This document shows, piece after piece, positions 1 through 21,080 of a stretch of 21,080 nucleotides of DNA. Origin of the DNA: a virus; IMG/VR virus record IMGVR_UViG_3300027847_000730, positions 1 through 21,080 of that record; one strand, 5' to 3'. A model generated the notes under the pieces. That model was not told the DNA's origin. It was given only the letters and a program-made list of their open reading frames with translations, and did no database searches. Numbering within the stretch: position 1 is the stretch's first letter; each line of letters starts with the position of its first letter. The position numbers and the translations under genes are program-made.

Positions 1-96
1 CATGCAGGGACACATACTTGAGCAAGCAGGGACATGCAGGGACACATACTTGAGCAAGCAGGGACATGCAGGGACACATACTTGAGCAAGCAGGGA
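1..96. repeat. 32-bp tandem repeat, three copies
   Basis: Three identical 32-bp units begin at 1, 33 and 65. Each opens with CATGCAGGGA and contains ACTTGAGCAAGCAGGGA. The array starts exactly at the first base of the window, so further copies may lie to the left or the assembly may have broken inside it. The period is not a multiple of three, so the array does not hold one reading frame, which argues against coding. In T7-like phages, arrays of short repeats flank the terminal redundancy; a similar role here is inferred. Confidence 0.95.
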
Positions 97-168
97 CATG
101 ATGAACATGATGAACATGATGAACATGCAGGACATGATGAACATGATGAACATGCAGGACATGATGAA
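97..168. repeat. 9-bp tandem repeat, eight units
   Basis: Eight consecutive 9-mers of the form CATGATGAA (six) or CATGCAGGA (two) follow the 32-bp array without a gap. The variant CATGCAGGA is nearly the first nine bases of the 32-bp unit, so the two arrays seem related. A similar CATGATGAACATG stretch recurs alone at 452-464. Read as protein the array would give His-Asp-Glu repeats, but there is no good ribosome-binding site and the frame has no recognisable domain. Confidence 0.95.
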
Positions 169-494
169 CGCTCCACGATAACGTCCGGACGATCAAAGTT
201 TTTTGCTCCCAGGGACGCAACCCGAATCCGATTGACCCCCAAGAAATCAAAAACCCTCAAAAGTGTTCCCTACGGGAACAAAAAGAAAGTCTTGACAGCT
301 TGGGCCGGATATGGTCTGCTATTGGAACATTGATTGACGTTGCTTCCGGGCATTTCCAGTCAGTGCAAGGAATACGAGAACACGTTTAGTAGCTCACAAG
401 CGGAAAACCTCCGGCTTGCATCATGGAAACGAACGTAGCACGGGCAACGATCATGATGAACATGTCCAGCGGAACCGGACATGTAAGTACGTTA
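169..494. other. gene-free stretch with short inverted repeats
   Basis: I see no convincing gene here. It holds a 10-bp palindrome CGTCCGGACG at 182-191, a hairpin TGTTCCC-TAC-GGGAACA at 264-280, and an 8-bp inverted repeat ACATGTCC/GGACATGT at 460-467 and 477-484 around a 9-nt loop. A TTGACA at 292 lacks a matching -10 box at 16-18 bp. The reading frames crossing it have repeat-derived or low-complexity sequence. Confidence 0.6.
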
Positions 495-572
495 CGGTCA
501 CGATCACGCTTACGGTCACGCTTACGGTCACGATCACGATCACGCTTACGGTCACGATCACGATCACGCGGA
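495..572. repeat. hexamer tandem repeat, thirteen units
   Basis: Thirteen consecutive hexamers are built from CGGTCA, CGATCA and CGCTTA, with a diverged last unit CGCGGA. The order is partly higher-order (CGGTCA-CGATCA-CGATCA-CGCTTA recurs), suggesting 12-24 bp duplications. Five units contain GATC. Translation gives Arg/Ser or Thr/Ile low-complexity protein, which looks like a by-product of the repeat. Confidence 0.95.
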
Positions 573-631
573 ACCTTGAGGGATACGTATGCCCTTTTTC
601 AATCATAAACCTGTCTTCAAAAGGGATAGTT

Positions 632-757
632 ATGTCCAGTCAAAAAAAGTATAAAGTTGTTACCATTGGATCGGAAGCCAGAGCATGTTCTTCCGCTTGG
701 CAAGTACGTGAGTATTTGCCACGCAAGAAATGGTCTTGGAATCCACCGAAATCATAG
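632..757 (+). CDS. small basic protein, 41 aa, unknown
   Basis: This short frame starts with ATG six bases after AAGGGA, a good ribosome-binding site. It encodes a Lys/Arg/Trp-rich peptide beginning MSSQKKYKVV and ending with a basic, aromatic KKWSWNPPKS tail. The composition looks protein-like rather than repeat-derived, which sets it apart from the frames just upstream. It ends a few bases before the 19-bp repeat array. I do not recognise the family. The main doubt is its length. Confidence 0.42.
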   Translation: MSSQKKYKVVTIGSEARACSSAWQVREYLPRKKWSWNPPKS

Positions 758-760
758 CTT

Positions 761-836
761 CTCAAGCGTGATCACGTAGCTCAAGCGTGATCACGTAGCT
801 CAAGCGTGATCACGTAGGTTCAAGCGTGATCACGTG
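761..836. repeat. 19-bp tandem repeat with 10-bp palindrome, four copies
   Basis: Four direct repeats of about CTCAAGCGTGATCACGTAG each hold the perfect palindrome CGTGATCACG, at 767-776, 786-795, 805-814 and 825-834. Spacings are 19, 19 and 20 bp, nearly two helical turns, so the palindromes face roughly the same side of the DNA. That geometry fits an array of sites for a dimeric DNA-binding protein, like iterons or operators (inference). Each centre is a GATC. Confidence 0.93.
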
Positions 837-874
837 TACACTTACGTACACTTGTGTACACTTATGTACACCCA
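835..874. repeat. 10-bp tandem repeat, four copies
   Basis: Four 10-bp units (TGTACACTTA, CGTACACTTG, TGTACACTTA, TGTACACCCA) abut the last 19-bp repeat. Each holds GTACAC, and TGTACA is itself palindromic. The period is about one helical turn. The array ends 19 bp before the first ATG of the next gene, so it could act as a regulatory site for it. Confidence 0.9.
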
Positions 875-893
875 CACACTCACGAGAGCAGTC

Positions 894-1172
894 ATGTATG
901 CGAACCAAGACGGGGTAGCTTCAAAGCTACAAAAAACAACATTTACATGCGGTAAATGTAGTACCACAATCACGGTTAATGATGATCAATCCCTTGCACT
1001 TGCAAGCGGTGCGCCAGTCACTCACTCATGCGAGGGGGAAACCGAGTTTTTTCCGGCATACGAAACCGCTGTTTCAGTAGATGAAACCGCCATTTTTTAC
1101 GATCAACTTGCATTACGTGAGTTCGCAAGCGGACTTGCAAGCGGTAAGCCGCTTAGCGGATTTTTGGCTTGA
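894..1172 (+). CDS. small cysteine-containing early protein, 92 aa
   Basis: The likely start is the ATG at 894, preceded by GAGAG; a GTG at 834 would extend the frame into the 10-bp repeats and is less likely. The protein has a Cys-X2-Cys pair (TCGKC, about residues 18-22) and a later His-Ser-Cys (about 44-46), which could form a small metal site. The C-terminal half carries a repeated Ala-Ser-Gly motif encoded by copies of GCAAGCGG. The stop codon overlaps the -35 box of the next promoter. No family recognised; first gene after the repeat region, probably early. Confidence 0.62.
   Translation: MYANQDGVASKLQKTTFTCGKCSTTITVNDDQSLALASGAPVTHSCEGETEFFPAYETAVSVDETAIFYDQLALREFASGLASGKPLSGFLA
1139..1165 (+). 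terminator. possible weak terminator or attenuator hairpin
   Basis: AAGCGG-TAAG-CCGCTT (1139-1154) forms a 6-bp stem, and the overlapping CCGC-TTA-GCGG (1149-1159) forms an alternative 4-bp stem followed by ATTTTT. The two are mutually exclusive, as in an attenuator. It lies in the last codons of the preceding gene and just before a promoter. The stems are short, so the call is tentative. Confidence 0.3.
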
Positions 1173-1197
1173 CACCTTTTTTGGGTTCTGCCATACT
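1169..1197 (+). promoter_or_regulatory. sigma70-type early promoter 1
   Basis: A perfect -35 TTGACA (1169-1174) is separated by 17 bp from -10 CATACT (1192-1197). Its flanks match promoter 3 at 1877 closely: CTTGACACCTTTTTTGG before and CTAGTGGCTC after. It should be read by host RNA polymerase and drive the small genes from 1343 on. Confidence 0.8.
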
Positions 1198-1342
1198 AGT
1201 GGCTCATTAATCAGCGGCTTGAGATTGCTCAGAAAGGGCATGACGTTGAGCCTTGCACAATCGGATGCACAACCACCTAAACAGTGGCGTTAGCGTCCGA
1301 AAAAAAAGGGTTGCAAGCCGCTTTCCTTCATAAGGGATTATT

Positions 1343-1516
1343 ATGATTTTTGCAAGTATTCTAATGACGTTTGGAGCATCATTCTTTTTGTTCCTTGCGT
1401 TCATCCACATTGGCCCGGTAGCTGGTGCGGTTACGCTTCACATAGTGGCAATTATGCTGTTTTTTGGCTCCGGCATGGTTGCAGGTGAAGCAATTCGAGA
1501 AGAGCTAAAACTCTAA
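1343..1516 (+). CDS. small membrane protein, 57 aa
   Basis: This short frame begins with ATG in the leader GGGATTATTATG, which closely matches the leaders of the genes at 1570, 3895 and 5216. The peptide is almost wholly hydrophobic, with two likely membrane spans (about residues 2-22 and 26-48) and a short charged end REELKL. It lies between two early promoters. No family recognised; small inner-membrane proteins of phages often alter host physiology or block superinfection, but that is only a possibility here. Confidence 0.66.
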   Translation: MIFASILMTFGASFFLFLAFIHIGPVAGAVTLHIVAIMLFFGSGMVAGEAIREELKL

Positions 1517-1517
1517 C

Positions 1518-1546
1518 TTGACACTTCTATTTTGTTGTGTCATCCT
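1518..1546 (+). promoter_or_regulatory. sigma70-type early promoter 2
   Basis: TTGACA (1518-1523), a 17-bp spacer and CATCCT (1541-1546). It lies directly after the stop of the 57-aa gene and 24 bp before the next start. The -10 box is weaker than in promoters 1 and 3, but spacing and -35 are the same. Confidence 0.7.
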
Positions 1547-1569
1547 GAATCAGTCAATCGGAGATTATT

Positions 1570-1875
1570 ATGCTTACTGATAATTGTGGCATGTATGGTA
1601 AATATGGTTTGAAAACTAGTCCTTACATGCTTTCAGGTGAAGAAATCAAGATTTCGAGACTCAAGCATTCGCAAGATGAATGCGAAGTTCATGGCCCTTG
1701 CATGAATGGAGTTTTCCATTCTGTAGTTGTCAATAAAGTAAATCTACATAAATGGCTTGACAAGGACTTGCTTGTGCAAGAAGCATTTCCGCACCTCACG
1801 CCTAACGAGCGGGAGTACCTGATGACAGGTACATGTTGTGCCCCGTTTTGGGATGATGATGAAGATGATTTTTAG
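1570..1875 (+). CDS. early protein, 101 aa, with acidic C-terminus
   Basis: The start ATG follows GGAG by six bases. The segment around residues 68-88 (QEAFPHLTPNEREYLMTG) resembles a motif I recall from small phage proteins, in which an 'AFP.L...EREFL.TG' core is followed by an acidic tail; here the tail is DDDEDDF. Two Cys (TCC) sit between motif and tail, and there are Cys/His residues near the N-terminus (C6, C38, C44), so metal binding is possible. The exact role is unknown. Its own promoter lies just upstream and another starts right after its stop. Confidence 0.85.
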   Translation: MLTDNCGMYGKYGLKTSPYMLSGEEIKISRLKHSQDECEVHGPCMNGVFHSVVVNKVNLHKWLDKDLLVQEAFPHLTPNEREYLMTGTCCAPFWDDDEDDF

Positions 1876-1876
1876 C

Positions 1877-1905
1877 TTGACACCTTTTTTGGAGTGTGTC
1901 ATTCT
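1877..1905 (+). promoter_or_regulatory. sigma70-type early promoter 3
   Basis: TTGACA (1877-1882), a 17-bp spacer and CATTCT (1900-1905), in a context almost identical to promoter 1 (shared CTTGACACCTTTTTTGG and CTAGTGGCTC). It overlaps the end of the preceding gene and should drive the genes from 1989 on. Confidence 0.8.
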
Positions 1906-1988
1906 AGTGGCTCGATTGTTTGAGTTTCATGCAGTCTCAAGCAGTCTTGTGTTTCAAAAACTGTATTACTCCAATAATGGAGCTTCTC

Positions 1989-2285
1989 ATGAGTATGTTT
2001 GTTTCTACAATTAGTGGTCATAATGGCCAGTCAGTTCCGGATTCCGCAGTGCTGAAGCCCGGTCAATGGATTTCCGAAGGAACCCAAGGGTTCAGTAGGC
2101 GCAAAGGGGTCTACATGGGAACCGTCATTTCCGATGGCAACCATGTTGTGATTTGGGACGTTGGACAACCGCGTCCTGAGCTACGCCATCAAATGATGGT
2201 AGCTCGAGCATTTGTTGTGTCATCCAACCAGCCCGGACGTACTCGTTCTGGACTTATGCAAAGTCTGTTCAAGCTGTTTTCATAA
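1989..2285 (+). CDS. early protein of unknown function, 98 aa
   Basis: I chose the ATG at 1989 because GGAG lies six bases upstream; in-frame starts at 1920 (TTG), 1929 and 1977 have no ribosome-binding site and would begin close to promoter 3. The centre (GQWISEG..., VYMGTVISDGNHVVIWDVG) has alternating hydrophobic residues suggesting a small beta-barrel; the C-terminus is basic and Ser-rich. No family recognised. Confidence 0.7.
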   Translation: MSMFVSTISGHNGQSVPDSAVLKPGQWISEGTQGFSRRKGVYMGTVISDGNHVVIWDVGQPRPELRHQMMVARAFVVSSNQPGRTRSGLMQSLFKLFS

Positions 2286-2297
2286 GGAAACAGAAAC

Positions 2298-2322
2298 TCC
2301 CTGCATGGAAATCATGCAGGGA
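2298..2322 (+). promoter_or_regulatory. 10-bp perfect hairpin, possible RNA-processing site
   Basis: TCCCTGCATG (2298-2307) pairs fully with CATGCAGGGA (2313-2322) around a GAAAT loop. No T-run follows, so it is not a standard terminator. The right arm equals the first ten bases of the 32-bp repeat at 1, 33 and 65. In T7, early transcripts are cut by RNase III at intergenic hairpins; a similar job here is inferred. Confidence 0.65.
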
Positions 2323-2336
2323 TTCCATAACTAATT

Positions 2337-2951
2337 ATGTTTAAGATTGACAATAAAAAGTGCCGTGAGTACGGGGCTACAAGCCCAAAAAACATGGAAA
2401 GCGTGATTGCTTTTGTGTTTTCGTCAATTCGAGTACAAACCGCACTCCTACCACGCTTTATGCGAGAATACAAGCGGCGTGGTCTTGCTTCCAGTTGGCT
2501 CTGGGGTAACAAAAAAACCGGTCTGTCCTATGTTAGGAAACATAGAAATCAGCTTTTCAAGGATTATCAGCAAATCTTGAAGTCTAAAAAAGGATCATGC
2601 GAACATGATCTAATTATGCTATTTTTGGATGTTCCGGGTCTTGGGATTCCCAAAAGTGCATTTGTTGTTCAAATGCTAACCGGAAAATCTGGGTGTATGG
2701 ATGTTCATAACATCCGAAAGTACATGCCAGAACTGGATGCAGGAAAAGGTACTCCGGCAATCTTTCAAACCAGCGGGAACTCGACTTCTTTGAAGTCAAA
2801 AAAGGTCAATCAGTACATAGTTGCCTGTAAAAAAGCAGGTGGATCACAAAAAATGTGGGATGCTTGGTGTAATCATATTGCAGTTCTGCAACCAAAGCAT
2901 TTTCTTGACGGTGAAGCCGTCTCAAACATGCACCATGAGGTACTTACATGA
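2337..2951 (+). CDS. helix-hairpin-helix-like early protein, 204 aa
   Basis: This is the largest gene before the RNA polymerase. Residues about 92-130 read LIMLFLDVPGLGIPKSAFV, then CMDVHNIRKYM. The 'PGLGIPKSAF' turn looks like a helix-hairpin-helix DNA-binding motif as in DNA glycosylases, followed by an Asp in an M-D-x-H-N context (D122) where glycosylases carry a catalytic Asp (established for the HhH superfamily; its application here is inference). The N-terminal 80 residues are basic. The gene overlaps the next by ATGA, so translation is probably coupled. It might be a base-excision-like DNA enzyme or just a DNA binder; I would not name it further. Confidence 0.88.
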   Translation: MFKIDNKKCREYGATSPKNMESVIAFVFSSIRVQTALLPRFMREYKRRGLASSWLWGNKKTGLSYVRKHRNQLFKDYQQILKSKKGSCEHDLIMLFLDVPGLGIPKSAFVVQMLTGKSGCMDVHNIRKYMPELDAGKGTPAIFQTSGNSTSLKSKKVNQYIVACKKAGGSQKMWDAWCNHIAVLQPKHFLDGEAVSNMHHEVLT

Positions 2952-3154
2952 AAAGCACTGCAACTCTTTCAGAACGTTTTGATGAGGCAAAATTTTTGCT
3001 TGAACTCGAACTTCTTGAAAATAAAATTAACTGGAATCTTGATTTAATGGACTATGATCCAGACTATATGGATGAAGTTTTAAATCATTATCGTTACAAT
3101 GAATTTGATCTTTTGGATCATGACAACTATGAATGGTATGGTGAAAATGATTAG
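2948..3154 (+). CDS. small acidic protein, 68 aa
   Basis: It starts in an ATGA overlap with the preceding gene, with GAGG seven bases upstream. The protein is strongly acidic and Tyr-rich in its second half (DYDPDYMDEVLNHYRYNEFDLLDHDNYEWYGEND is cut by few basic residues), with a helical Glu/Leu stretch before it. Small acidic early proteins of T7-like phages often mimic DNA or bind host enzymes; there is no direct evidence here. Family unknown. Confidence 0.78.
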   Translation: MKSTATLSERFDEAKFLLELELLENKINWNLDLMDYDPDYMDEVLNHYRYNEFDLLDHDNYEWYGEND

Positions 3155-3371
3155 TCTTGAAAAACCTGAAATCCAGTATTTCAGCAAGTCAAAAGATGAA
3201 TGGATTCCCATCCACGAAATGGAAAGTCATCATCTTGTAAATGTTGTTAAGTTGATTGTACTTTCACAAAAAAACGAAAATACGGTAATGTTTAGAACCA
3301 AGTACCCAACCATTGACGGGTACACCGTAACCGCTTTTGGTGATGGAAAGCAGTTTACAATGGAACATTGA
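3147..3371 (+). CDS. unknown early protein, 74 aa
   Basis: The start at 3147 overlaps the end of the previous gene by eight bases and follows GGTGAAA; an in-frame ATG at 3099 would give a long overlap and an unlikely Met-rich start. The peptide begins MISLEKPEIQYF and looks like a small mixed alpha/beta protein ending GDGKQFTMEH. No family recognised. Confidence 0.75.
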   Translation: MISLEKPEIQYFSKSKDEWIPIHEMESHHLVNVVKLIVLSQKNENTVMFRTKYPTIDGYTVTAFGDGKQFTMEH

Positions 3372-3385
3372 GTTGAAAAAAAACT

Positions 3386-3595
3386 ATGGAAAACGGAGAA
3401 TCAAAGTTGACCACAAAGTGTGTGGTTTGTGGTCGTCAATCCCTGAGTTTGCAAGTAAAACAAGTTCTAACATGTATTGACGGCTCACAGCGAGCATTTG
3501 TGAGGTGTAGAAATGATGAATGTAGAGGAAACTACACGCTTCCTTTTGGAAGCATAAACTATGAATCCACAACAGAAAGGCACTATGTCTCTTAA
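3386..3595 (+). CDS. zinc-ribbon-like protein, 69 aa
   Basis: Two pairs of Cys are placed as in a zinc ribbon: CVVC near residues 12-15, and CRNDEC near residues 41-46. Hydrophobic and aromatic residues follow (NYTLPF). Small zinc-ribbon proteins in phages often bind nucleic acid or RNA polymerase (general knowledge). The ribosome-binding site is poor. The 3' end overlaps the next gene by 11 bp. Confidence 0.75.
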   Translation: MENGESKLTTKCVVCGRQSLSLQVKQVLTCIDGSQRAFVRCRNDECRGNYTLPFGSINYESTTERHYVS

Positions 3596-3779
3596 ACATG
3601 GTTATGATGCAGAAATCATTATGGCAGCAGTACGCCATAAGGTTGAAGATATGGATATTCAAAGTCTGGTTGATCTTGCAATAGATGGAGAAGCAAATTT
3701 TTATCTTGGAAAAGCAGATCAAGAGGATATTAAAATGCTTCTTGAAGACTTTGGTACTAAAGATGACTGTACAAGCTAG
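3585..3779 (+). CDS. unknown acidic helical protein, 64 aa
   Basis: I chose the ATG at 3585 because AAAGG lies five bases upstream; the ATG at 3561 has none. The protein is predicted helical and acidic (KVEDMDIQSLVDLAIDG, then QEDIKMLLEDFG). It is the last gene before a 115-bp structured gap. Family unknown. Confidence 0.75.
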   Translation: MSLKHGYDAEIIMAAVRHKVEDMDIQSLVDLAIDGEANFYLGKADQEDIKMLLEDFGTKDDCTS

Positions 3780-3787
3780 ATGATAGA

Positions 3788-3866
3788 AGGAGATAGCAAC
3801 TCCTGAACCTAGCCTGTACCTAAGTCCACTTAGCAGTGGCGGTTGGTGGGTTATCCTTAAACCCAC
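3788..3866 (+). promoter_or_regulatory. intergenic cluster of three hairpins
   Basis: Three short stem-loops follow each other: AGGAG/CTCCT (3788-3804, 7-nt loop), CCACT/AGTGG (3826-3839, TAGC loop) and GTGGGTT/AACCCAC (3846-3866, 7-nt loop). The middle one competes with CTAAGT-CC-ACTTAG (3820-3833). There is no T-run, so a simple terminator is unlikely. The stretch could be an operator, a processing site or a small structured RNA. A tRNA was considered and rejected. Confidence 0.5.
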
Positions 3867-3894
3867 ACTTCAATAACCTAAAATGGAGATTATT

Positions 3895-4146
3895 ATGAGA
3901 GGAAAGCAAGGAAGAATCAGGCGACAAAAAAGTGCTGTAGTGGTTATGAAGTCGCTACTTAATAAGTATGATGAGCAAATGGAAAACCCAAGAGCAGCAA
4001 TTTATGAAGAACTGCTGAAAACCAAGTCCTTTGGTGACATCAGCAATGATGACCTCAAGAAAACCGATGGTTTCAAAAAGAATCTTTTGAAAAAGAAGGA
4101 AAAAGCCAAGAAGTGTCTTCAAAATACTTTGAATAACCTCAAATGA
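3895..4146 (+). CDS. small basic protein, 83 aa
   Basis: The ATG at 3895 has GGAG six bases upstream and the same GGAGATTATTATG leader as the gene at 1570; an ATG at 3883 would put the ribosome-binding site inside the gene. The protein is very basic at both ends (MRGKQGRIRRQK at the start, a Lys-rich helix LLKKKEKAKKCLQNTLNNLK at the end), which suggests nucleic-acid or ribosome binding. Family unknown. Confidence 0.8.
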   Translation: MRGKQGRIRRQKSAVVVMKSLLNKYDEQMENPRAAIYEELLKTKSFGDISNDDLKKTDGFKKNLLKKKEKAKKCLQNTLNNLK

Positions 4147-4157
4147 AAGAGGAACCA

Positions 4158-4319
4158 ATGGAACAAATACGCCTAGAGTTTGTGTTGCGAAGTCTAGACA
4201 AGCAAATCGACTCTCTTCAAGAGTTAAGGGGGCAGATAGTTTCTTTTGCACAGTCTTACAATAAGAAGACTGAACTAAAGAAGAAAACACTCAGCACTAA
4301 CGACCTTTACCATCAATAA
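4158..4319 (+). CDS. short coiled-coil-like protein, 53 aa
   Basis: A short frame starting at ATG 4158, six bases after AGAGG; an in-frame ATG at 4143 would add five residues. The sequence MEQIRLEFVLRSLDKQIDSL has a heptad-like spacing of Leu/Ile/Val, followed by a Lys-rich tail. It fills the gap between two accepted genes, which supports it. Family unknown. Confidence 0.66.
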   Translation: MEQIRLEFVLRSLDKQIDSLQELRGQIVSFAQSYNKKTELKKKTLSTNDLYHQ

Positions 4320-4321
4320 TT

Positions 4322-4606
4322 ATGATCGACAATGAATGGACAAAAACCAAGAAGGACAATCGAGAACAAATCACGCTAGGATTTCATGCCTCTAGTTATC
4401 AGACTCTGACTTTACCAGAGGGAATCCAACCAACCATGATTGAAAATCTTTGGGTGGATGAAGAAACACAGATGGTAAACATACAAGTTAATGGTCACAC
4501 CATCGAACTAGATTCCGATGATTGGTCTGACATTATTCACCTTGATGAAATTAAAGCAATAGATGAAGCAAGTAATGGTCAACGTTATAGTGAATCTTTT
4601 TATTGA
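4322..4606 (+). CDS. unknown acidic protein, 94 aa
   Basis: It begins two bases after the preceding stop, with a weak ribosome-binding site, so it may depend on coupling. The middle alternates hydrophobic and polar residues (MVNIQVNGHTIELDSDDW), suggesting a small beta domain, and the C-terminal third is acidic. It ends four bases before the tRNA gene. No family recognised. Confidence 0.8.
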   Translation: MIDNEWTKTKKDNREQITLGFHASSYQTLTLPEGIQPTMIENLWVDEETQMVNIQVNGHTIELDSDDWSDIIHLDEIKAIDEASNGQRYSESFY

Positions 4607-4610
4607 TTTT

Positions 4611-4685
4611 GGGGTCGTAGTTCAGTAGTAGAACGTTGGCTTGTCACGCCAAAGGTCGCGGGTTCAAGTCCCGCCGATCCCGCCA
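4611..4685 (+). tRNA. tRNA-Asp (anticodon GTC), CCA encoded
   Basis: A full cloverleaf can be drawn: acceptor GGGGTCG/CGATCCC with one G-T pair, D-stem GTTC/GAAC, anticodon stem TTGGC/GCCAA with loop TTGTCAC, T-stem GCGGG/CCCGC with loop TTCAAGT, discriminator G and encoded CCA. The anticodon GTC and discriminator G fit Asp. The D-loop reads AGTAGTA and lacks the usual GG, which is odd. It could serve translation or be a relic of an attachment site; no integrase is visible. Confidence 0.95.
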
Positions 4686-4696
4686 CCAAAGGAAAC

Positions 4697-4870
4697 ATGA
4701 AAAATCGTGATGTACAGGTATTGTTGACAATAAGAGAAGCCGAGACCCTTCTGGATGGTGCAGACCCAAACATTGATGGGCAATGTGCTACTTGGAATAT
4801 AGAGGATTTTTGGGATGGCAAAGTTCAAATAAGGCAAGCCATTCAAAACTACTACAAGAAGAAAAAATGA
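4697..4870 (+). CDS. unknown small protein, 57 aa
   Basis: The ATG at 4697 follows AAAGGAAAC, a good ribosome-binding site, 12 bases after the tRNA. The peptide begins MKNRDVQVLLTIREAETLLDG and ends in a basic YYKKKK tail; the middle holds DGQCATWNIEDFWDG. It overlaps the next gene by ATGA, which supports translation. Family unknown. Confidence 0.68.
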   Translation: MKNRDVQVLLTIREAETLLDGADPNIDGQCATWNIEDFWDGKVQIRQAIQNYYKKKK

Positions 4871-5205
4871 AACTAAATGTAGAGAGTCCATTTCATTTTG
4901 GGCACAGAGATTTTGCACAAGAAAAAGACACCACTGAAAAAGTTTGGCATTCAATTGATCTTGATGATCTCAAGACTGATCGAACTATCTACGATCAATT
5001 TAATGCAGCACGTTTTGTGATAAAACCATGTAAGGATGATGGAAAATCACTAGAAGAAGGGTGTACTTCTCATCGAATAGATGCAGAAGCACTTCGAAAA
5101 TCTATACAGTCAATCAAAGTTATGGATTCTAAAAGTGCAGATGTTCAATCACAAAATGAATATCTAAACAGTTCCTATAACTGGAAGAATCTTCAAACTG
5201 ATTAA
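4867..5205 (+). CDS. unknown early protein, 112 aa
   Basis: It starts at an ATGA overlap with the previous gene, behind AAGAAG. The protein is hydrophilic, starts MKLNVESPFHFGHRD, and has alternating acidic and basic stretches with no membrane segment. The region FNAARFVIKPCKDDGKSLEEG may form the core. No family recognised. Confidence 0.76.
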   Translation: MKLNVESPFHFGHRDFAQEKDTTEKVWHSIDLDDLKTDRTIYDQFNAARFVIKPCKDDGKSLEEGCTSHRIDAEALRKSIQSIKVMDSKSADVQSQNEYLNSSYNWKNLQTD

Positions 5206-5215
5206 GGACATTATT

Positions 5216-5428
5216 ATGCAAGAAAGTACATTCAACATAATTGTGTTGACACTTACTAGCACATGTGCTATACTACTATTAGTTTTAAGTGGTGCAGTGT
5301 TGATTGAAATCAATGCTCTTAAATATCAAGGAAAAGCAACTCAAGCTATACTTGCTACAAATACACTTCAACATGAATTATTTTTTAATTTATGCGAACT
5401 TATAAACAATGACCATGAAAAAAAATAA
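5216..5428 (+). CDS. small membrane-anchored protein, 70 aa
   Basis: ATG at 5216 follows AAGG and the ATTATTATG leader seen in other small early genes. Residues about 7-30 form one hydrophobic span (IIVLTLTSTCAILLLVLSG), followed by a helical, mostly polar domain likely on one side of the inner membrane. Its coding sequence contains a near-consensus promoter at 5246. Family unknown. Confidence 0.76.
   Translation: MQESTFNIIVLTLTSTCAILLLVLSGAVLIEINALKYQGKATQAILATNTLQHELFFNLCELINNDHEKK
5246..5274 (+). promoter_or_regulatory. sigma70-type promoter 4, inside a gene
   Basis: TTGACA (5246-5251), a 17-bp spacer and TATACT (5269-5274), the closest to consensus of the four. It lies within the membrane-span codons of the 70-aa gene, about 500 bp before the RNA polymerase start, and could give extra early transcription of that gene. 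Confidence 0.7.
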
Positions 5429-5522
5429 GAAAGGAACTGGAACCAAAAACAGAGGTTGTCAAATTCATAGAAATAAAATTAAATATAGAAGAAAGGCAAA
5501 ACACAGTATATGCCTGACATAA
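5415..5522 (+). CDS. possible very basic peptide, 35 aa
   Basis: An ATG at 5415 overlaps the end of the previous gene, and the stop at 5520 overlaps the start of the next. The peptide is dense in Lys and Arg (begins MKKNKKGTGTKNRG). It would fill an otherwise empty 80-bp gap by overlap coupling, but it has no clear ribosome-binding site and may be chance. Confidence 0.3.
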   Translation: MKKNKKGTGTKNRGCQIHRNKIKYRRKAKHSICLT

Positions 5523-5767
5523 CCCGTGAAGAATTGGCTGAAGTTCATGGTTTTTCAAGTGAAGAGATACTGAAACTAGACCATGAGGCACAGCATATCC
5601 TTGGCAAATCAATTATGTTGATTGATTTTGCTCTCAGAGATGAAGGTGAGTCATGTCAAGATAGAATCGAGACTGCTCTTACTTTCATCGAAACTGCTAT
5701 GCGACTCATTGAGCAAAATTTTGAATCTATGGTAGAATCTAAAATTCCAGACACACAAATGAATTGA
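5510..5767 (+). CDS. unknown helical protein, 85 aa
   Basis: It lies immediately before the RNA polymerase and overlaps its start codon. The sequence is acidic and helix-prone (EELAEVHGFSSEEILKLDHE, then FIETAMRLIEQNFESM). The ribosome-binding site AAGG lies further upstream than usual, about 12 bases. Family unknown. Confidence 0.78.
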   Translation: MPDITREELAEVHGFSSEEILKLDHEAQHILGKSIMLIDFALRDEGESCQDRIETALTFIETAMRLIEQNFESMVESKIPDTQMN

Positions 5768-8205
5768 ATTTAAGACTTGAGCAGGAAAAAATAGAAAAGG
5801 AAATGAATGGACTTGGAATCGAAAGATACCACAAGAACATTCGAGAAGCAAAAGAAAAGGGTCGAGAAAGTGTAACGCTTTATGGTGTAACACTAATGAA
5901 AGAAGCACTAGATGCAGTGGTTCATGGAATTAGAGGTTTTCTTGAAGATGCCTTGAGTGGTAAAGTAGGGAGAATGTCTAATTCTGCACAAACTCTGATG
6001 CTTCTTGATCCTGAGATTGCTGCATATCTAACTCTAAAATACTGTATTGATGGAGTTACAACTCGTTCACCACTGACAAGAGTTGCCATGAAACTAGCAA
6101 ATGGACTTGAAGATCAATTTAAGTTTGATTTGTGGGAAAACTCAAAAGAAGCTGGTCACCTTTTTCGGTTAATCAAAAACAAAGTAAATCGAAAGACTAC
6201 AAATCGAGTCTATCGTAGATACAATTTGATCCGAAGAATGACCAAAGTAGAGGTGCTAGAACACTCAGCATGGTCTAGTGCAGAAAAGTTGCATCTTGGT
6301 TGTAAACTTATAGACATACTTGTGAATTCTACTGGATTGTTGGAAGTTAAAACAATACAGTATAAACGCAACAAACGAATCCTATTTTTACAAGCAAACG
6401 CCGCAACTCTTGCATGGATTGAGCAGTTAAACACTGAAGGAGAGACAATTCATCCATACTTTTATCCATGTGTGATTCCTCCAAGAGACTGGTCATCACC
6501 TCTTAATGGTGGATACCACACAAACAAGATTAACACGATTCCTCTAATTAAAACCAGAAATCGAGAGTATCTTGAAGAAATGGAGTATCACTCGATGCCA
6601 CAAGAGTATGGTGCAATCAATGCACTTCAACGCACTCGTTGGCAAGTAAATACAAGAGTGTTGTCAATTATTAAGAAGTGTTGGGAGACCGGAGAATCAT
6701 GGGGTAACCTGCCTCCAAGAGAAGGATTCAAAGTTCTTCCATCACCAATTAAAGGTTCCTCAAAAAAGGATATGAGTGCAGAGGAACTTGATTTGTTTAT
6801 CAAGTGGAAAAAAAAGGCAACTGTTGTTTATGACCTAAACGCAAAGCTATCTTCAAAAAGAATACAACTCTCAAGAACACTGATGATGGCCGAGAAATTC
6901 AAGGAGTACGTAGCTATTTATTTTGTTTATCAAATGGACTTTCGTGGTCGAAAGTACACAGTTAATTCATTTTTAACTCCACAAGGGCCGGACTACGCAA
7001 AAGCACTTCTACATTTTTCAAAGAAGTTAGCAATCAAGACTTCTGAACAAGAGGAATACTTTGCAGTACATGGAGCAAATTGCTATGGTTACGATAAAGT
7101 ATCTTTTAAAGATCGAGTTACATGGGTTTACAAGCATTCAAATGAAATCTCAGAATCTGCAAAGAATCCACTAGATTTTAGATGGTGGACAAAAGCAGAA
7201 GAACCGTGGTCTTTTCTTGCATGGTGTTTTGAGTGGAGTGAATTTGTGGTTCAAGGTCTTGGATACAAATCTTCAATTCCAATATGTCTTGATGGAAGCA
7301 ACAATGGTCTTCAGCATTTTTCTGCAATGCTGCGTGATCCTGTTGGTGGAAAAGCAACAAATCTAACTCCAGAAGCAGTTCCACAAGACATTTATCAAGC
7401 AGTTGCTGATGTTGTAAAAGCAAAAGTTCTGATAGATGCAGAAAATGGTGAAAAATTTGCTCAGGAATGGCTCGATTTTGGCATTTCAAGAAAGATCACA
7501 AAAAGACCGGTAATGGTGGTTCCGTATGGTGGAACCCGCTTCTCTTGTAGAGTATATGTTGAAGAGGCAATCCATGAAAGGGTCTTGAGCGGAAAAACAG
7601 CTAATTTATTTGGTGATGATACTTATGAAGCCAGTCTTTATCTTTCGGCCCATGTTTGGTCTGCCATTGGTGAAGTAGTAATTGCAGCACGAACTGCAAT
7701 GAACTGGCTACGTAGTATTGGTCAGCAAATGTCGGACAAACATCTTCCAATTTCTTGGCAAACACCATCTGATTTTGTAGTACAACAGATGTACAAATCT
7801 ATGAAAGGAAGAAGAGTAACAACACACATCGACAATGTTTTGATTAAGCCGACTGTGTTGGAAGCTACTGATAAAGTGGACAAAAGAAGGGCAACCAATG
7901 GTCTTTCTCCAAACTTTGTTCACAGTATGGACGCTTCAGCCTTGACATTGACCATCAACAAATGTATAATGGAAGGTATAAATGATTTTGCTGTTGTGCA
8001 TGACTCTTATGGAGTACACGCAGCATGTGTGCCTCGTATGGCAAATGCTATACGAGTCGCTTTTGTAGATATGTATAGTAGTGTAGATGTTCTTAGTGAA
8101 CTCTACAACTCTTTGGAAGAAGTTCTACCCGAACTTGAGAAACCTCCAGAACTAGGTTCTCTCAGCATCGGAGAAGTTCTTAATTCCAAGTATTTCTTTT
8201 CTTAA
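5764..8205 (+). CDS. T7-like single-subunit DNA-directed RNA polymerase
   Basis: This phage RNA polymerase would transcribe the middle and late genes from phage-specific promoters. At 813 aa it is slightly shorter than T7 gp1 (883). Recognisable motifs in order: MDFRGR (near residue 392); catalytic Asp in LDGSNNGLQHFSAMLRD (D510, T7 D537); TKRPVMVVPYGG with Lys near 580 and Tyr near 588 (T7 K631, Y639); NFVHSMDAS; and catalytic Asp in VVHDSYG (near D748, T7 D812). The N-terminal domain is the shortened form I associate with marine T7-like phages. The only start giving a full N-terminus is TTG at 5764, which overlaps the previous stop as TTGA; ATG 5803 would remove 13 residues of the likely domain. 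Confidence 0.98.
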   Translation: MNLRLEQEKIEKEMNGLGIERYHKNIREAKEKGRESVTLYGVTLMKEALDAVVHGIRGFLEDALSGKVGRMSNSAQTLMLLDPEIAAYLTLKYCIDGVTTRSPLTRVAMKLANGLEDQFKFDLWENSKEAGHLFRLIKNKVNRKTTNRVYRRYNLIRRMTKVEVLEHSAWSSAEKLHLGCKLIDILVNSTGLLEVKTIQYKRNKRILFLQANAATLAWIEQLNTEGETIHPYFYPCVIPPRDWSSPLNGGYHTNKINTIPLIKTRNREYLEEMEYHSMPQEYGAINALQRTRWQVNTRVLSIIKKCWETGESWGNLPPREGFKVLPSPIKGSSKKDMSAEELDLFIKWKKKATVVYDLNAKLSSKRIQLSRTLMMAEKFKEYVAIYFVYQMDFRGRKYTVNSFLTPQGPDYAKALLHFSKKLAIKTSEQEEYFAVHGANCYGYDKVSFKDRVTWVYKHSNEISESAKNPLDFRWWTKAEEPWSFLAWCFEWSEFVVQGLGYKSSIPICLDGSNNGLQHFSAMLRDPVGGKATNLTPEAVPQDIYQAVADVVKAKVLIDAENGEKFAQEWLDFGISRKITKRPVMVVPYGGTRFSCRVYVEEAIHERVLSGKTANLFGDDTYEASLYLSAHVWSAIGEVVIAARTAMNWLRSIGQQMSDKHLPISWQTPSDFVVQQMYKSMKGRRVTTHIDNVLIKPTVLEATDKVDKRRATNGLSPNFVHSMDASALTLTINKCIMEGINDFAVVHDSYGVHAACVPRMANAIRVAFVDMYSSVDVLSELYNSLEEVLPELEKPPELGSLSIGEVLNSKYFFS

Positions 8206-13643: not shown

Positions 13644-14405
13644 ATGAAGAAAGACGGTTCTTTGGTAGAGCAACTCCTGATTGATGGAGATATTCTGGTC
13701 TACAAAAACTGTTGTGCAGTTGAAACAGAAATTGATTGGGGAGATGATTTCTGGACTCTTCACAGTGATCTAAAATCAGTTAAGCAACTAATTGATCAAG
13801 AAGTCTTGTCACTCTTAAACAAGACAGGAGCAAAAGAAGCCTCTATTCTGTTTTCTAGTAAACACAACTTCAGAAAGAAGGTGATGGATACTTATAAAGC
13901 ACATAGAGCAGGTACTCGAAAACCAATGGTTTTTAATGAAGCAAAAAACTATTGCAGAGAAAAATGGAATGCGTTTGAATCTAAGTGGCTTGAAGCCGAT
14001 GATCTTCTTGGTGTTAAGAACACACTTTGGCCTGAACTATGCTGTATTGTAAGTGCAGATAAAGACTTACTGACAGTTCCGGGTAATCATTGGGATCAGA
14101 AAGCAAACATAATGTATTGGATTGACGAAGACACTGCAAACTACAATTTCTATATGCAGACACTTACAGGTGATCCTACAGATGGATACAAAGGATGTCC
14201 CGGTATTGGACCAACAAAAGCAGAACGTATTCTGAATAAAGCAAAAGAAGAAAAGATTCCTCTATGGAATGCAGTTCTAGAAACATATAATAAATCTGCT
14301 CTTGACAAAGAGTTTGCACTAACCCAAGCAAGAATGGCATACATTCTGAGAAAAGAACAGTGGAAAGGACTAAATGAATACCCAAAAATGTGGAAACCGG
14401 TATGA
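13644..14405 (+). CDS. 5'-3' exonuclease, FEN/PIN type (T7 gp6-like)
   Basis: Acidic metal-binding residues of the FEN family are visible: Asp14/Asp16 (LLIDGDILV), Glu117-Ala-Asp119-Asp120 (LEADDLL), Asp139/Asp141 (SADKDL), Asp177/Asp180 (GDPTDGYKG), followed by the helix-turn-helix [14 protein letters not shown]. In T7 the equivalent enzyme removes RNA primers and degrades host DNA. Length 253 aa (T7 gp6 is 300). It starts behind TAAAGGAAAT, part of a hairpin. Its stop overlaps the next start as ATGA. Confidence 0.95.
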
Positions 14406-17650: not shown

Positions 17651-18138
17651 AAAAAGCAGTACAGAAGCCTTTTGAATCAGCAGCATCAGCAGTACATACG
17701 AATTTAGCTAATGTTCGAGACACTGTAGAAACTAACCGATCTTCGGTTCAAGCCGGTATTGAAAATGCAAAAGCAGCAGCACACACTAATTGGCAAAATA
17801 CTGTGGCTGCGTCACAAACCAATCTTAATAAAATTGGTGATACCACAATGCAAAATTTGGGTAACGCAAATATGACGGCTTCAGGTAATCTAGGTGCAGG
17901 AATGGATGAATTTACTTCAACACTAGATACTAATATGAAGAACTTGCCGTGGATGCCAGATTCAGGTGGTGGAGGTGGCGATAATCCAGTCGTAGCCGCA
18001 AATTACTCTAATCAGAAAAGTAAGACCGGAAAAGGCGGTTCTGGAGGGAACAAATCTGGTGTACTGGCTGGAGGAGAAAAGGTAAAAAGAAATCAAGGAA
18101 AACGAGCACTTTACGCAACCAAAAACAAAGCTAAATAA
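17635..18138 (+). CDS. low-complexity Ala/Asn/Gly-rich protein, possible small virion protein (gp6.7/7.3-like)
   Basis: Strong ribosome-binding site AAAGGAGACAAATG. The N-terminus MGGAVKKAVQKPFES resembles the start of T7 gp7.3 (MGKKVKKAVKK). The middle has helical repeats with recurring T-N motifs (VHTNLANVRDTVETN, AHTNWQNTVAASQTN), then a Gly-rich linker and a basic tail. Size 167 aa, longer than T7 gp7.3. A virion or tail role is inferred from position and composition. Confidence 0.8.
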   Translation: MGGAVKKAVQKPFESAASAVHTNLANVRDTVETNRSSVQAGIENAKAAAHTNWQNTVAASQTNLNKIGDTTMQNLGNANMTASGNLGAGMDEFTSTLDTNMKNLPWMPDSGGGGGDNPVVAANYSNQKSKTGKGGSGGNKSGVLAGGEKVKRNQGKRALYATKNKAK

Positions 18139-18145
18139 GGATTGC

Positions 18146-19783
18146 ATGGAAGATGAGAATGCCATAGGTTCCTCAAATCAAGTATCGAGTATGTATGATG
18201 CTCTACTAGGAGAACGAGAAACCTATGTACAAAGAGCAAGAGAATGTGCAAAAGTAACAATACCTAGTTTAGTACCTCCAGAGGGTTCTACTTATGCAAG
18301 TGTATTCCAAACTCCATTTCAATCGGTTGGTGCAAGAGGTGTAAACAATCTTGCAAGCAAACTTCTTCTTACTCTTCTTCCTCCAAATTCTCCGTTTTTT
18401 AGACTTACCATAGATGACTTTGATATAGAAGAACTGGTTGGTCCTGATCAAAGGGGTCCAGTAGAAGAGGGATTTGCTAAGATAGAACGTGCTGCAATGG
18501 CACAGATAGAATCTTCTGCATATCGGGTTCCAGTCTTTGAAGCACTAAAGCATCTAATTGTAACCGGTAATTGCCTTCTTTATCTTCCGGATACTGGAGG
18601 GATGCGGGTGTTTCACTTGGATCGTTATGTAATAAAGAGAGACCCAATGGGTAACATGATCTACATGATTACCAAAGAGTCTCTTTCAGCAAAGTCACTT
18701 ACACCTGAAGCACGAGAAGTTCTTGGGCTACCAAGTCCAGAAGAACTTAGTACTGAATCTACCGACAAACCCTATAACCTATTTACGTATGTATGTGACA
18801 AGGGTAAGTACTGGCATGTACACCAAGAAGTTAATAAAACAGTAATTCCAGAATCCTTTGGAAAATACCCAAAGGACAAGAATCCCTTTATTCCACTTAG
18901 GTTTTCTAGAGTTGATGGAGAATCTTATGGAAGAGGTCTGGTAGAAGAATATCTGGGTGACCTAAAATCTCTTGAATCGCTAACTCAAGCAATTGTAGAA
19001 GGATCAGCAGCAGCAGCAAAAGTTCTCTTTCTGGTAAGACCAAATGGAACCACAAAAATCAGCACCTTGGCAAAGTCTCCTTCTGGAGCAATTGTTCAAG
19101 GAGATGCAAATGATGTTTCAACACTTCAACTAGAAAAATATAATGACTTCCGAATTGCACTTGACACAATCACACAAATTCGGGATCGTCTTGCATTTGC
19201 TTTTCTTCTGAATAGTTCAGTACAACGAAATGCTGAACGAGTAACTGCTGAAGAAGTACGCTTTATGGCACAAGAACTTGAGTCTGCACTTGGTGGTGTT
19301 TACTCAGTACTGTCCCAAGAGTTTCAAGTTCCTTTGGTTAATCTTCTTCTTCAGAAGTTGGTTAAAGAAAAGAAGATGCCTAAGTTTCCAAAAGATAAAA
19401 TCAAACCTCAGATTGTTACCGGAATTGAAGCACTTGGTCGTGGACAAGACTTAAATAAACTTGCTCAATTCTTGGAATATCTGGCACCTCTTGGTCCTGA
19501 AGCAATCATGAATAACCTGAATCTTGATGATTACATTGATCGTCTTGGTGCTTCACTTGGCATTGATACAGGAGGACTGATTAAGTCACAAGAACAGAAG
19601 CAACAAGAACAAATGGCTCGACAACAACAACAAGAACAAATGGCCCAACAAGCAATGATGCAAGATGTGGTTAAAGGAGCAACTCCTCAACTAGCAAAAG
19701 GTATCACAGAAGCCGGTGCTCAAAATCCTGAAATGGTTCAGGAATTGACCCAACAAATGATGGGCAGTTTAAACGCAAACTAA
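18146..19783 (+). CDS. head-tail connector / portal protein (T7 gp8-like)
   Basis: At 545 aa it matches T7 gp8 (536) in size and position before scaffold and capsid. Portal-like features: N-terminal YDALLGERETYVQRARECAK, FQSVGARGVNNLASKLLLTLLPPNSPFFRL, then NCLLYLP, SYGRGLVEEYLGDLKSLESL, and a C-terminal AERVTAEEVRFMAQELESALGGVYS. The end is Gln/Met-rich. It forms the dodecameric ring through which DNA enters and leaves. ATG follows AAGGATTGC. Confidence 0.96.
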   Translation: MEDENAIGSSNQVSSMYDALLGERETYVQRARECAKVTIPSLVPPEGSTYASVFQTPFQSVGARGVNNLASKLLLTLLPPNSPFFRLTIDDFDIEELVGPDQRGPVEEGFAKIERAAMAQIESSAYRVPVFEALKHLIVTGNCLLYLPDTGGMRVFHLDRYVIKRDPMGNMIYMITKESLSAKSLTPEAREVLGLPSPEELSTESTDKPYNLFTYVCDKGKYWHVHQEVNKTVIPESFGKYPKDKNPFIPLRFSRVDGESYGRGLVEEYLGDLKSLESLTQAIVEGSAAAAKVLFLVRPNGTTKISTLAKSPSGAIVQGDANDVSTLQLEKYNDFRIALDTITQIRDRLAFAFLLNSSVQRNAERVTAEEVRFMAQELESALGGVYSVLSQEFQVPLVNLLLQKLVKEKKMPKFPKDKIKPQIVTGIEALGRGQDLNKLAQFLEYLAPLGPEAIMNNLNLDDYIDRLGASLGIDTGGLIKSQEQKQQEQMARQQQQEQMAQQAMMQDVVKGATPQLAKGITEAGAQNPEMVQELTQQMMGSLNAN

Positions 19784-19784
19784 A

Positions 19785-20618
19785 ATGGAAGAAATACAAT
19801 CTTTTCAAGGAGAAGGAGTAAATCAAGCAGGTTCACCTGAACACATCAATGAGATGCTTGCAAAAGTTGATGCACCAATTGATACTCATGATGCAGGTCT
19901 TGTAAAACAAGATACTCCAGTAACTTCAGAAGGAAGACCGGTCTGGCTTCCAGATAAGTTTGATTCTCCAGAAGAAATGGCAAGAGCATATTCTCAGCTA
20001 GAACAGAAATTTAGTTCAAGTAATGAACAACTTCAAGAGATCGAAAATACTGCACAACTAGAACAGCAGACAGCAGAGATTCAAGATACATCTGCACCAG
20101 AAGTTGCTCAACTGTTAGATAATAATGGTCTTGACTTCAGTGTCTTTCAACAAGAATATAACCAAACCGGAACTCTTTCTAAGGATGCTTATGAAGCACT
20201 CGAAGAAGCAGGTCTAGGTCCGGAAGTGGTCAACACTTGGATTCAAGGACAAGAGGCAGTTGCAGATCAACAGGTAAACAACATTTATGATATGGTTGGT
20301 GGTCAGGAATCTTATAATGAGATGATGGAGTGGGCTAACGATAATCTTGAACCTTGGGAAGTTGATGCCTACAATAGTCAGATTGGAAATCTTGATCCTA
20401 ACTCTCAGTTTGCAGTCTCTGGACTTCAAGCTCGATACATGAACTCAATTGGTAATCAGGCACCAACACTCTATCAAGGAGAACGTGCTTCTAGCGAAAT
20501 GCCAAAATATGAATCACTCGCAGAACTAACGACTGCAATGGGTGATCCACGATATGCTGCTGATCCTGCATTCAGGAGAACAGTAGAAAATAAGTTGAAT
20601 AATTCAGCTTTATTTTAG
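19785..20618 (+). CDS. capsid assembly / scaffolding protein (T7 gp9-like)
   Basis: It begins one base after the portal stop. The 277-aa product is acidic and Gln/Glu-rich, with predicted helices through the middle (MARAYSQLEQKFSSSNEQL), and ends with a conserved-looking ADPAFRRTVENKLNNSALF segment. This matches T7 gp9 (307 aa) in composition and position; scaffolding proteins guide prohead assembly and then leave. Confidence 0.92.
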   Translation: MEEIQSFQGEGVNQAGSPEHINEMLAKVDAPIDTHDAGLVKQDTPVTSEGRPVWLPDKFDSPEEMARAYSQLEQKFSSSNEQLQEIENTAQLEQQTAEIQDTSAPEVAQLLDNNGLDFSVFQQEYNQTGTLSKDAYEALEEAGLGPEVVNTWIQGQEAVADQQVNNIYDMVGGQESYNEMMEWANDNLEPWEVDAYNSQIGNLDPNSQFAVSGLQARYMNSIGNQAPTLYQGERASSEMPKYESLAELTTAMGDPRYAADPAFRRTVENKLNNSALF

Positions 20619-20729
20619 GAAGAAGAGAACATCAAGTAGAACGTAGCCCTATGCGTGGGATAACTTGTTTGAGACTGGTATTATTCTCTTTTAAGAAAAT
20701 AACATTCACTTTTAAATAAGGAAAAACAA
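20619..20729 (+). promoter_or_regulatory. gap before the capsid gene with weak inverted repeats
   Basis: The leader holds AAGAGAA pairing at a distance with TTCTCTT, enclosing smaller AAGT/ACTT and CCC/GGG pairs. T7-like phages usually place a strong phage promoter here; I could not identify one with confidence. The ribosome-binding site is AAGGAAAAACAAATG. Confidence 0.4.
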
Positions 20730-21080
20730 ATGGCTGTAGATTATACTGGTCATAGAATGGGACAAAATAATGCTTCGGGTGATGCCCGTGCGTTATTCCT
20801 AAAACTGTATGCCGGAGAAGTTCTTACTGCATTCCAGAGTAAGAATATTATGATGCCTTTGCATCGTGTTCGTACTATCTCAAAAGGGAAATCTGCTCAA
20901 TTTCCGATGACAGGTAAGTACCGTGATGCTGGTTATCATACTCCCGGTAAAGAAATCATACCGACCGCTGCAAAGCACGGAGAACGTATTGTTTCTATTG
21001 ACGATCTCTTAATCAATGCTCAATTTATTCCGAACATTGATGAAGCAATGTCACACTTCGACATTCGTTCTGTGTACACT
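20730..21080 (+). CDS. major capsid protein (T7 gp10-like), 5' part only
   Basis: The first 117 codons are in the window and run off the right edge. The sequence ARALFLKLYAGEVLTAF, HRVRTISKGKSAQFP and EAMSHFDIRSVYT align clearly with the N-terminal part of T7 gp10 (FLKVFGGEVLTAF, ISSGKSAQFP, DAMNHYDVRSEYT). The start is fixed by the ribosome-binding site AAGGAAAAACAA. Confidence 0.96.
   Translation, partial: MAVDYTGHRMGQNNASGDARALFLKLYAGEVLTAFQSKNIMMPLHRVRTISKGKSAQFPMTGKYRDAGYHTPGKEIIPTAAKHGERIVSIDDLLINAQFIPNIDEAMSHFDIRSVYT

Follow-up and report, generated by a model that had tools for sequence, protein, structure and literature searches.

Tandem repeats beside the predicted genome end of a marine T7-like phage

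Introduction

Why should five different tandem arrays be packed into the first 874 nt of a viral sequence? We have studied this question in a stretch of 21,080 nt, which we call the window: positions 1 to 21,080 of the IMG/VR record IMGVR_UViG_3300027847_000730. A preliminary description had reported arrays with units of 32, 9, 6, 19 and 10 bp and proposed a genome end, a packaging signal, an origin or a protein-binding platform.

Tandem arrays at the left end of the window

All five arrays are recovered by Tandem Repeats Finder (TRF) at the place described, within positions 1–871, where they cover 41% of the bases. The elements of this region are the following:

1–100: array 1, unit of 32 bp CATGCAGGGACACATACTTGAGCAAGCAGGGA, 3.1 copies, 100% identity, TRF score 200
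96–169: array 2, 9-bp unit ACATGATGA, 8.2 copies, interspersed with ACATGCAGG; higher-order unit of 27 bp, 2.4 copies, 100%; TRF score 130
293–321, + strand: lone TTGACA with a poor -10 (TCTGCT), read from the sequence; a weak candidate for an early promoter in the stretch from array 2 to array 3
492–569: array 3, hexamers TTACGG/TCACGA/TCACGC in an 18-bp unit (periods 6/12/18 bp), TRF score 107
632–757, + strand: small ORF of 41 codons between arrays 3 and 4, with a ribosome-binding-like leader AAGGGATAG
761–835: array 4, 19-bp unit CTCAAGCGTGATCACGTAG, 3.9 copies, 96%, palindromic core CGTGATCACG, TRF score 134
835–871: array 5, GTGTACACTT/ACGTACACTT, period 10/20 bp, TRF score 69 (range 60–69)
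894–1172, + strand: first sizeable ORF past the arrays, 92 aa, CxxC motif, no confident family
1169–1197, + strand: predicted sigma-70-type promoter, TTGACA-17-CATACT

Arrays 1 to 4 are beyond doubt, since their scores are far higher than the maximum of 61 obtained in 500 dinucleotide-preserving shuffles of positions 1–900. A score of 60 or more appeared in one shuffle only; array 5 is the weakest of the five. In the rest of the window TRF found no array with a comparable score.

The arrays are not contiguous. Group I (1–169) contains the 32-bp and the 9/27-bp arrays; group II (492–871) contains the 18-bp hexamer array, the 41-codon ORF, the 19-bp array and the 10/20-bp array. It had been stated that the arrays follow each other with almost no genes between: this is roughly right, but 322 bp of unique sequence (170–491) and the small ORF intervene. 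To call their periods unrelated-looking was an overstatement: arrays 1 and 2 have ACATGCAGG in common, and the inverted repeats GATCACGCTT/AAGCGTGATC link arrays 3 and 4. A single extra copy of the array-2 motif is found at about 452–464. Array 1 is truncated by the contig end, and its copy number of at least 3 is a lower bound.

The 41-codon ORF has no Pfam match, and no relatives of the 894–1172 ORF were found among viral contigs. The frames 416–757 and 423–608 are open through array 3, with Arg-Ser/Leu and Thr-Val/Ile/Leu repeats; its translation in these frames is neither supported nor excluded. A host-type promoter module (CTTGACAC, 17-nt spacing, CATNCT) is present at 1169, about 1518 and about 1875, each time ahead of an early gene, and a search for repeated 14-mers gave no consensus for a phage promoter. 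In positions 1–6000 an Rfam search detected only a tRNA: a tRNA-Asp (GTC) at 4611–4685, among the early genes. The genome collection contains no exact copy of the 57-base core of this tRNA, and no host was identified by it.

The phage and its companion contigs

By its gene content the window is the left half of the genome of a marine T7-like phage (autographivirus). It has genes for RNA polymerase, single-strand binding protein, endonuclease, amidase, primase-helicase, DNA polymerase, exonuclease, ribonucleotide reductase, a head-tail adaptor and a head assembly protein, and PHROG matches are part of the evidence. A single-subunit RNA polymerase, a T7-type DNA polymerase, a primase-helicase and TerL (identified by PF22530) are found in the T7 order. 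The RNA polymerase has matches in 2574 phage records (tblastn). At the DNA level the relatives among named phages are limited to ribonucleotide reductase fragments. A search for closer left ends with the early proteins encoded at 1570–1872 and 894–1169 gave one weak match and none, respectively.

The 32-bp unit is found in two further viral contigs, L013 and L014, from two metagenomes and with clean flanks. L014 (27.7 kb, metagenome 3300027844) is 100% identical in its first 3280 bases to window positions 17800–21080; it encodes TerL and terminates in the 32-bp array of the window. L013 (metagenome 3300009786) independently shows the same arrangement. In both contigs array 1 is extended by variant 32-bp units (ACATACAGGGACATGAGCGGACATGCAKGGAC). 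Given the L014 overlap and the presence of the 32-bp array at the ends of the window and of L014, the two belong to the same phage and form a circular map, open only at array 1. In a more distant relative (L010, 68% in the RNA polymerase) the assembly runs through this join: TerL is followed by a repeat-bearing non-coding stretch and then by the early genes. Array 1 apparently disrupts short-read assembly right beside the genome end, which is why the contigs break there. Repeats are not a general cause of breaks in such contigs: when the three records (two contigs) of the window phage are set aside, a 21-mer test detects a repeat at the contig end in 1 of 35 right-end contigs and in 3 of 32 left-end ones.

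A rival explanation is an assembly artefact: short-read assembly would have collapsed the repeats, or joined them into chimeras, where the contig ends. The window does start within array 1, and arrays 2–5 are known from one assembly; arrays 2 and 4 have no copy in any other viral contig searched. However, the array-1 units recur with clean flanks in the two other contigs, and arrays 2–5 are embedded in unique sequence and run into intact early genes. We consider an artefact very improbable.

Genome-end signals and the predicted terminal repeat

The junction in L014 has the left-end box AAAAATATGTTACCCTA^TCGCTATATGG...TTTCCCCCATAGGGG, a CCCCC run 24 nt inside the left end (AAAAATATGTTACCCTA^TCGC) and, 240 bp on, ATCTGTTTTTTT at position 14364. 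Together they make up a T7-type genome-end cassette:

L014 14106–14375: left-end box with C-run, about 240 bp, ATCTGTTTTTTT

Similar signals stand at the edges of the terminal repeats recorded for five phages (^ marks the edge):

T7 (NC_001604): 160 bp, left AAAAATCTGAGTGACTA^TCTCAC, right CCCT^ATCTGTT
T3 (NC_003298): 231 bp, left AAAAATCTGAATGGGTA^TCTCAT, right CCCT^ATCTGTT
Syn5 (NC_009531): 237 bp, left TTTTGTGAAGGGGTA^GCTACT, right CCCC^ATCTGTT
P-SSP7 (NC_006882): 206 bp, left AAATGTCTGAGGTCATA^TATACG, right GCG^ACCTGTT
HTVC019P (NC_020483): 162 bp, left AAAATTATGAGGGGGTA^TCGTAT, right GGGTCT^GTTTTTTT

In HTVC019P the recorded right edge lies 4 nt inside a GTCTGTTTTTTT version of the signal. 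In all five a C-run lies about 25 nt in from the left end. The layout in L014, with box, C-run and ATCTGTT, is that of these five phages with exact terminal repeats, and we therefore predict a terminal repeat of 240 bp at L014 14124–14363, ahead of the arrays. The order is thus TerL, two IscA-like genes and one IscU-like gene, left-end box, terminal repeat, ATCTGTTTTTTT, about 50 bp, array 1, the other arrays and the early genes. Array 1 starts about 50–70 bp to the right of ATCTGTTTTTTT/ATCTGTT and of the predicted terminal repeat; counted from the predicted end, window position p corresponds to mature coordinate p+412 or more. The proposal of a genome end thus finds support: the arrays lie directly to the right of the predicted T7-type terminal repeat and concatemer-junction signal.

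The Fe-S assembly genes occupy L014 12972–14099, between TerL and the predicted terminal repeat: two are IscA-like (PF01521) and one IscU/NifU-like (PF01592). Near the equivalent right end there is talC in P-SSP7 and thymidylate synthase in Syn5, which suggests a slot for host-type metabolic genes.

In relatives with both TerL and a conserved early gene (45), the strict pattern ATCTRTTTT is found once per junction on the + strand in 30, as it is in L014; outside the junctions it is absent from the + strand in 323 kb of the relatives' contigs. With a looser pattern, which misplaces the cut in a few calls, both signals are present in 72 of the 94 TerL-bearing sequences listed, with a median spacing of 214 bp; the related contigs are not independent. 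The paired signals, left-end box with C-run and ATCTRT with T-run, are conserved from T7 to the marine autographiviruses (L010–L162), where they mark the edges of the terminal repeat. ATCTGTT is the class II terminator at the T7 concatemer junction (PMC11617373), and maturation has been described as starting with polymerase pausing at this sequence (PMC3276506). The left-end box and ATCTGTT, both outside the window, would be better packaging signals than the arrays.

Two observations in related contigs concern the same region. In L060 and L061, just to the right of ATCTATTTTTTTT, there is a 68-bp tandem repeat with 2.7 copies; its unit contains a sigma-70-type promoter, and the result is a series of tandem early promoters. 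In Roseobacter phage CRP-227 (L167, 2003–2052) five copies of ACTATAGGTA, similar to the T7 promoter core, lie between TerL and the left-end box. The deposited linear record of this phage is cut within the left-end box, so that the ends it gives probably reflect a circularised assembly.

Repeats at the same place in related phages

In 72 distinct relatives (arrays with a TRF score of at least 45) the coverage by arrays is 9.3% over the 200 bp that precede the signal, 3.5% over the 500 bp that follow it and 0.1–0.3% elsewhere. When only non-coding bases are counted, it is 8.7% before the signal, 4–6% in the 500 bp after it and about 0.5% further right; left of the TerL end it is 2–3%, over few bases. 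The location of the repeat zone beside the genome end is therefore well supported by these comparisons. The preliminary description had taken a lack of repeats at this place in relatives as evidence against its proposal, and on this point the outcome is mixed. Repeats are enriched there, but their unit sequences differ between clades and an array 0–900 bp after the signal is detectable in only 21 of the 72, so that no particular array would be needed for packaging. TRF detects nothing in the first 1.5 kb of P-SSP7, and the sole array of Syn5 is inside its terminal repeat. Five periods in one region had been considered unusual, a view which is weakened by the relative L030, where TRF also calls five or more arrays of differing period near the junction.

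Such variability is what would be expected if the repeats were a neutral by-product: in a non-coding leader where concatemers are cut, recombined and copied, slippage would give rise to functionless repeats with a fast turnover. The leader is also unusually long, as if inflated by arrays: the first ORF with an SD lies some 800 bp or more beyond the signal, compared with a median of 347 bp in the relatives. On the other hand, repeat density at this place is about tenfold that of the non-coding DNA to the right in the same phages, although the excess is only 2–4-fold with respect to the non-coding DNA left of the TerL end. Furthermore, T7 and T3 retain such repeats at the equivalent place, and array 4 has a foldability far above chance. 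We regard the neutral explanation as a serious candidate, though short of an even chance; slippage without any selection comes close in likelihood to a function in packaging.

Comparison with T7 and T3

Beside its left terminal repeat, at positions of about 172–360, T7 has the CCTAAAG repeats known as SRL, whose role is uncertain. A literature search found no paper on SRL function or on the arrays of the window. The preliminary description had compared the arrays with the short repeats of T7, and the comparison is apt: in T7 and T3 the SRL lies at the same place, to the right of the terminal repeat and ATCTGTT and ahead of the early promoters and the first gene, and its motif is found within the terminal repeat too, as in the window phage. 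The SRL, however, is a single degenerate repeat of 7–13 bp, whereas the window phage has several arrays with long exact units (32, 18 and 19 bp), an unrelated sequence and a longer leader. CCTAAAG is absent from window positions 1–900 and from the L014 end examined. Unlike T7, the window phage has no SRR (matching repeats to the left of the right terminal repeat), because Fe-S genes occupy the DNA as far as the cut, with 21 nt between the end of the IscU-like gene and the predicted left cut. As in L014, ATCTGTT marks the right edge at the T7 concatemer junction, and there is a left-end box AAAAATNTG...TA^TC with a C-run 24–25 nt inside; T7 differs by lacking the T-run after ATCTGTT which the window phage has in L014 (ATCTGTTTTTTT). 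The repeats of the window would thus be a richer version of the T7 end patch and not a new kind of system.

The sharing of motifs across the right edge of the terminal repeat can be measured. Altogether the repeat and the zone after the signal have 158 9-mers in common; shuffles gave 67 ± 11, and a cross-phage control gave 60. The sharing is individually clear in T7 (10 vs 0.5), T3, the window phage (10 vs 0.5) and a few relatives, some of them close kin. It is also compatible with copying errors, as the neutral explanation would have it. The predicted terminal repeat of the window phage holds two copies of CACGCAGGGACACGTAG, 32 bp apart and related to the array-1 unit; the match is modest, 22 of 32 positions, with a maximum of 21 in 200 shuffles.

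Arrays of the early leader

Arrays 3–5 flank the first small ORF, and arrays 4 and 5 would form strong hairpins in the early transcript. Predicted hairpins are strong in array 4 (fold z -7.0 vs shuffles) and more so in arrays 4 and 5 together (-8.6). These two arrays contain nine 6-bp palindromes, with 2.4 expected; over the whole of 1–873 there is no excess (14 vs 12.9 expected). Arrays 4 and 5 stand immediately ahead of the first sizeable early gene, and the RNase III site R0.3 of T3 is likewise a strong hairpin in such a position. By analogy, the two arrays may have a part in the processing or the stability of early mRNA, although they differ from R0.3 in being tandem palindromic units, with hairpins predicted from sequence.

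Array 4 could instead be a protein-binding platform or an iteron-type origin, bound by a regulator or an initiator. Four 19-bp direct repeats, each with a 10-bp palindrome and about two helical turns apart, do resemble iterons or operators, and they are located among early genes. But the phage has a primase-helicase, a DNA polymerase and an RNA polymerase of T7 type, no initiator gene family was recognised in the window, the 19-bp unit did not turn up in any other viral contig and no other array has that period. Such a role appears improbable.

Origin and possible function of the repeats

Taking this evidence together, we favour with moderate confidence the interpretation of the arrays as the repeat zone at the left end of a T7-like marine phage genome, at the position of the T7 SRL, with a putative packaging role for arrays 1 and 2. 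At the junction the phage RNA polymerase would pause, the terminase would cut and the terminal repeat would be duplicated, a process which in T7-like phages is still incompletely understood (PMC3350473). Arrays 1 and 2 may have been born there by slippage or copying during the duplication, and been kept in flux since. Like the CCTAAAG repeats of T7, they could serve as a spacer or a docking stretch beside the cut site.

A more speculative idea, which we consider doubtful, is that T7-like phages keep a fast-evolving, lineage-private vocabulary of repeats which spans the cut site, is common to the terminal repeat and the adjoining DNA, is copied across the cut during duplication of the terminal repeat and is used by each terminase to recognise its own concatemers. 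The 32-bp family would be the version of the window phage.

That repeats cluster to the left and to the right of the cut site, with a sequence specific for each lineage, makes the role of the neglected short repeats of T7 testable by comparison. With the signal pair, sequence alone would be enough to locate the physical genome ends in many marine T7-like phages that are uncultured.
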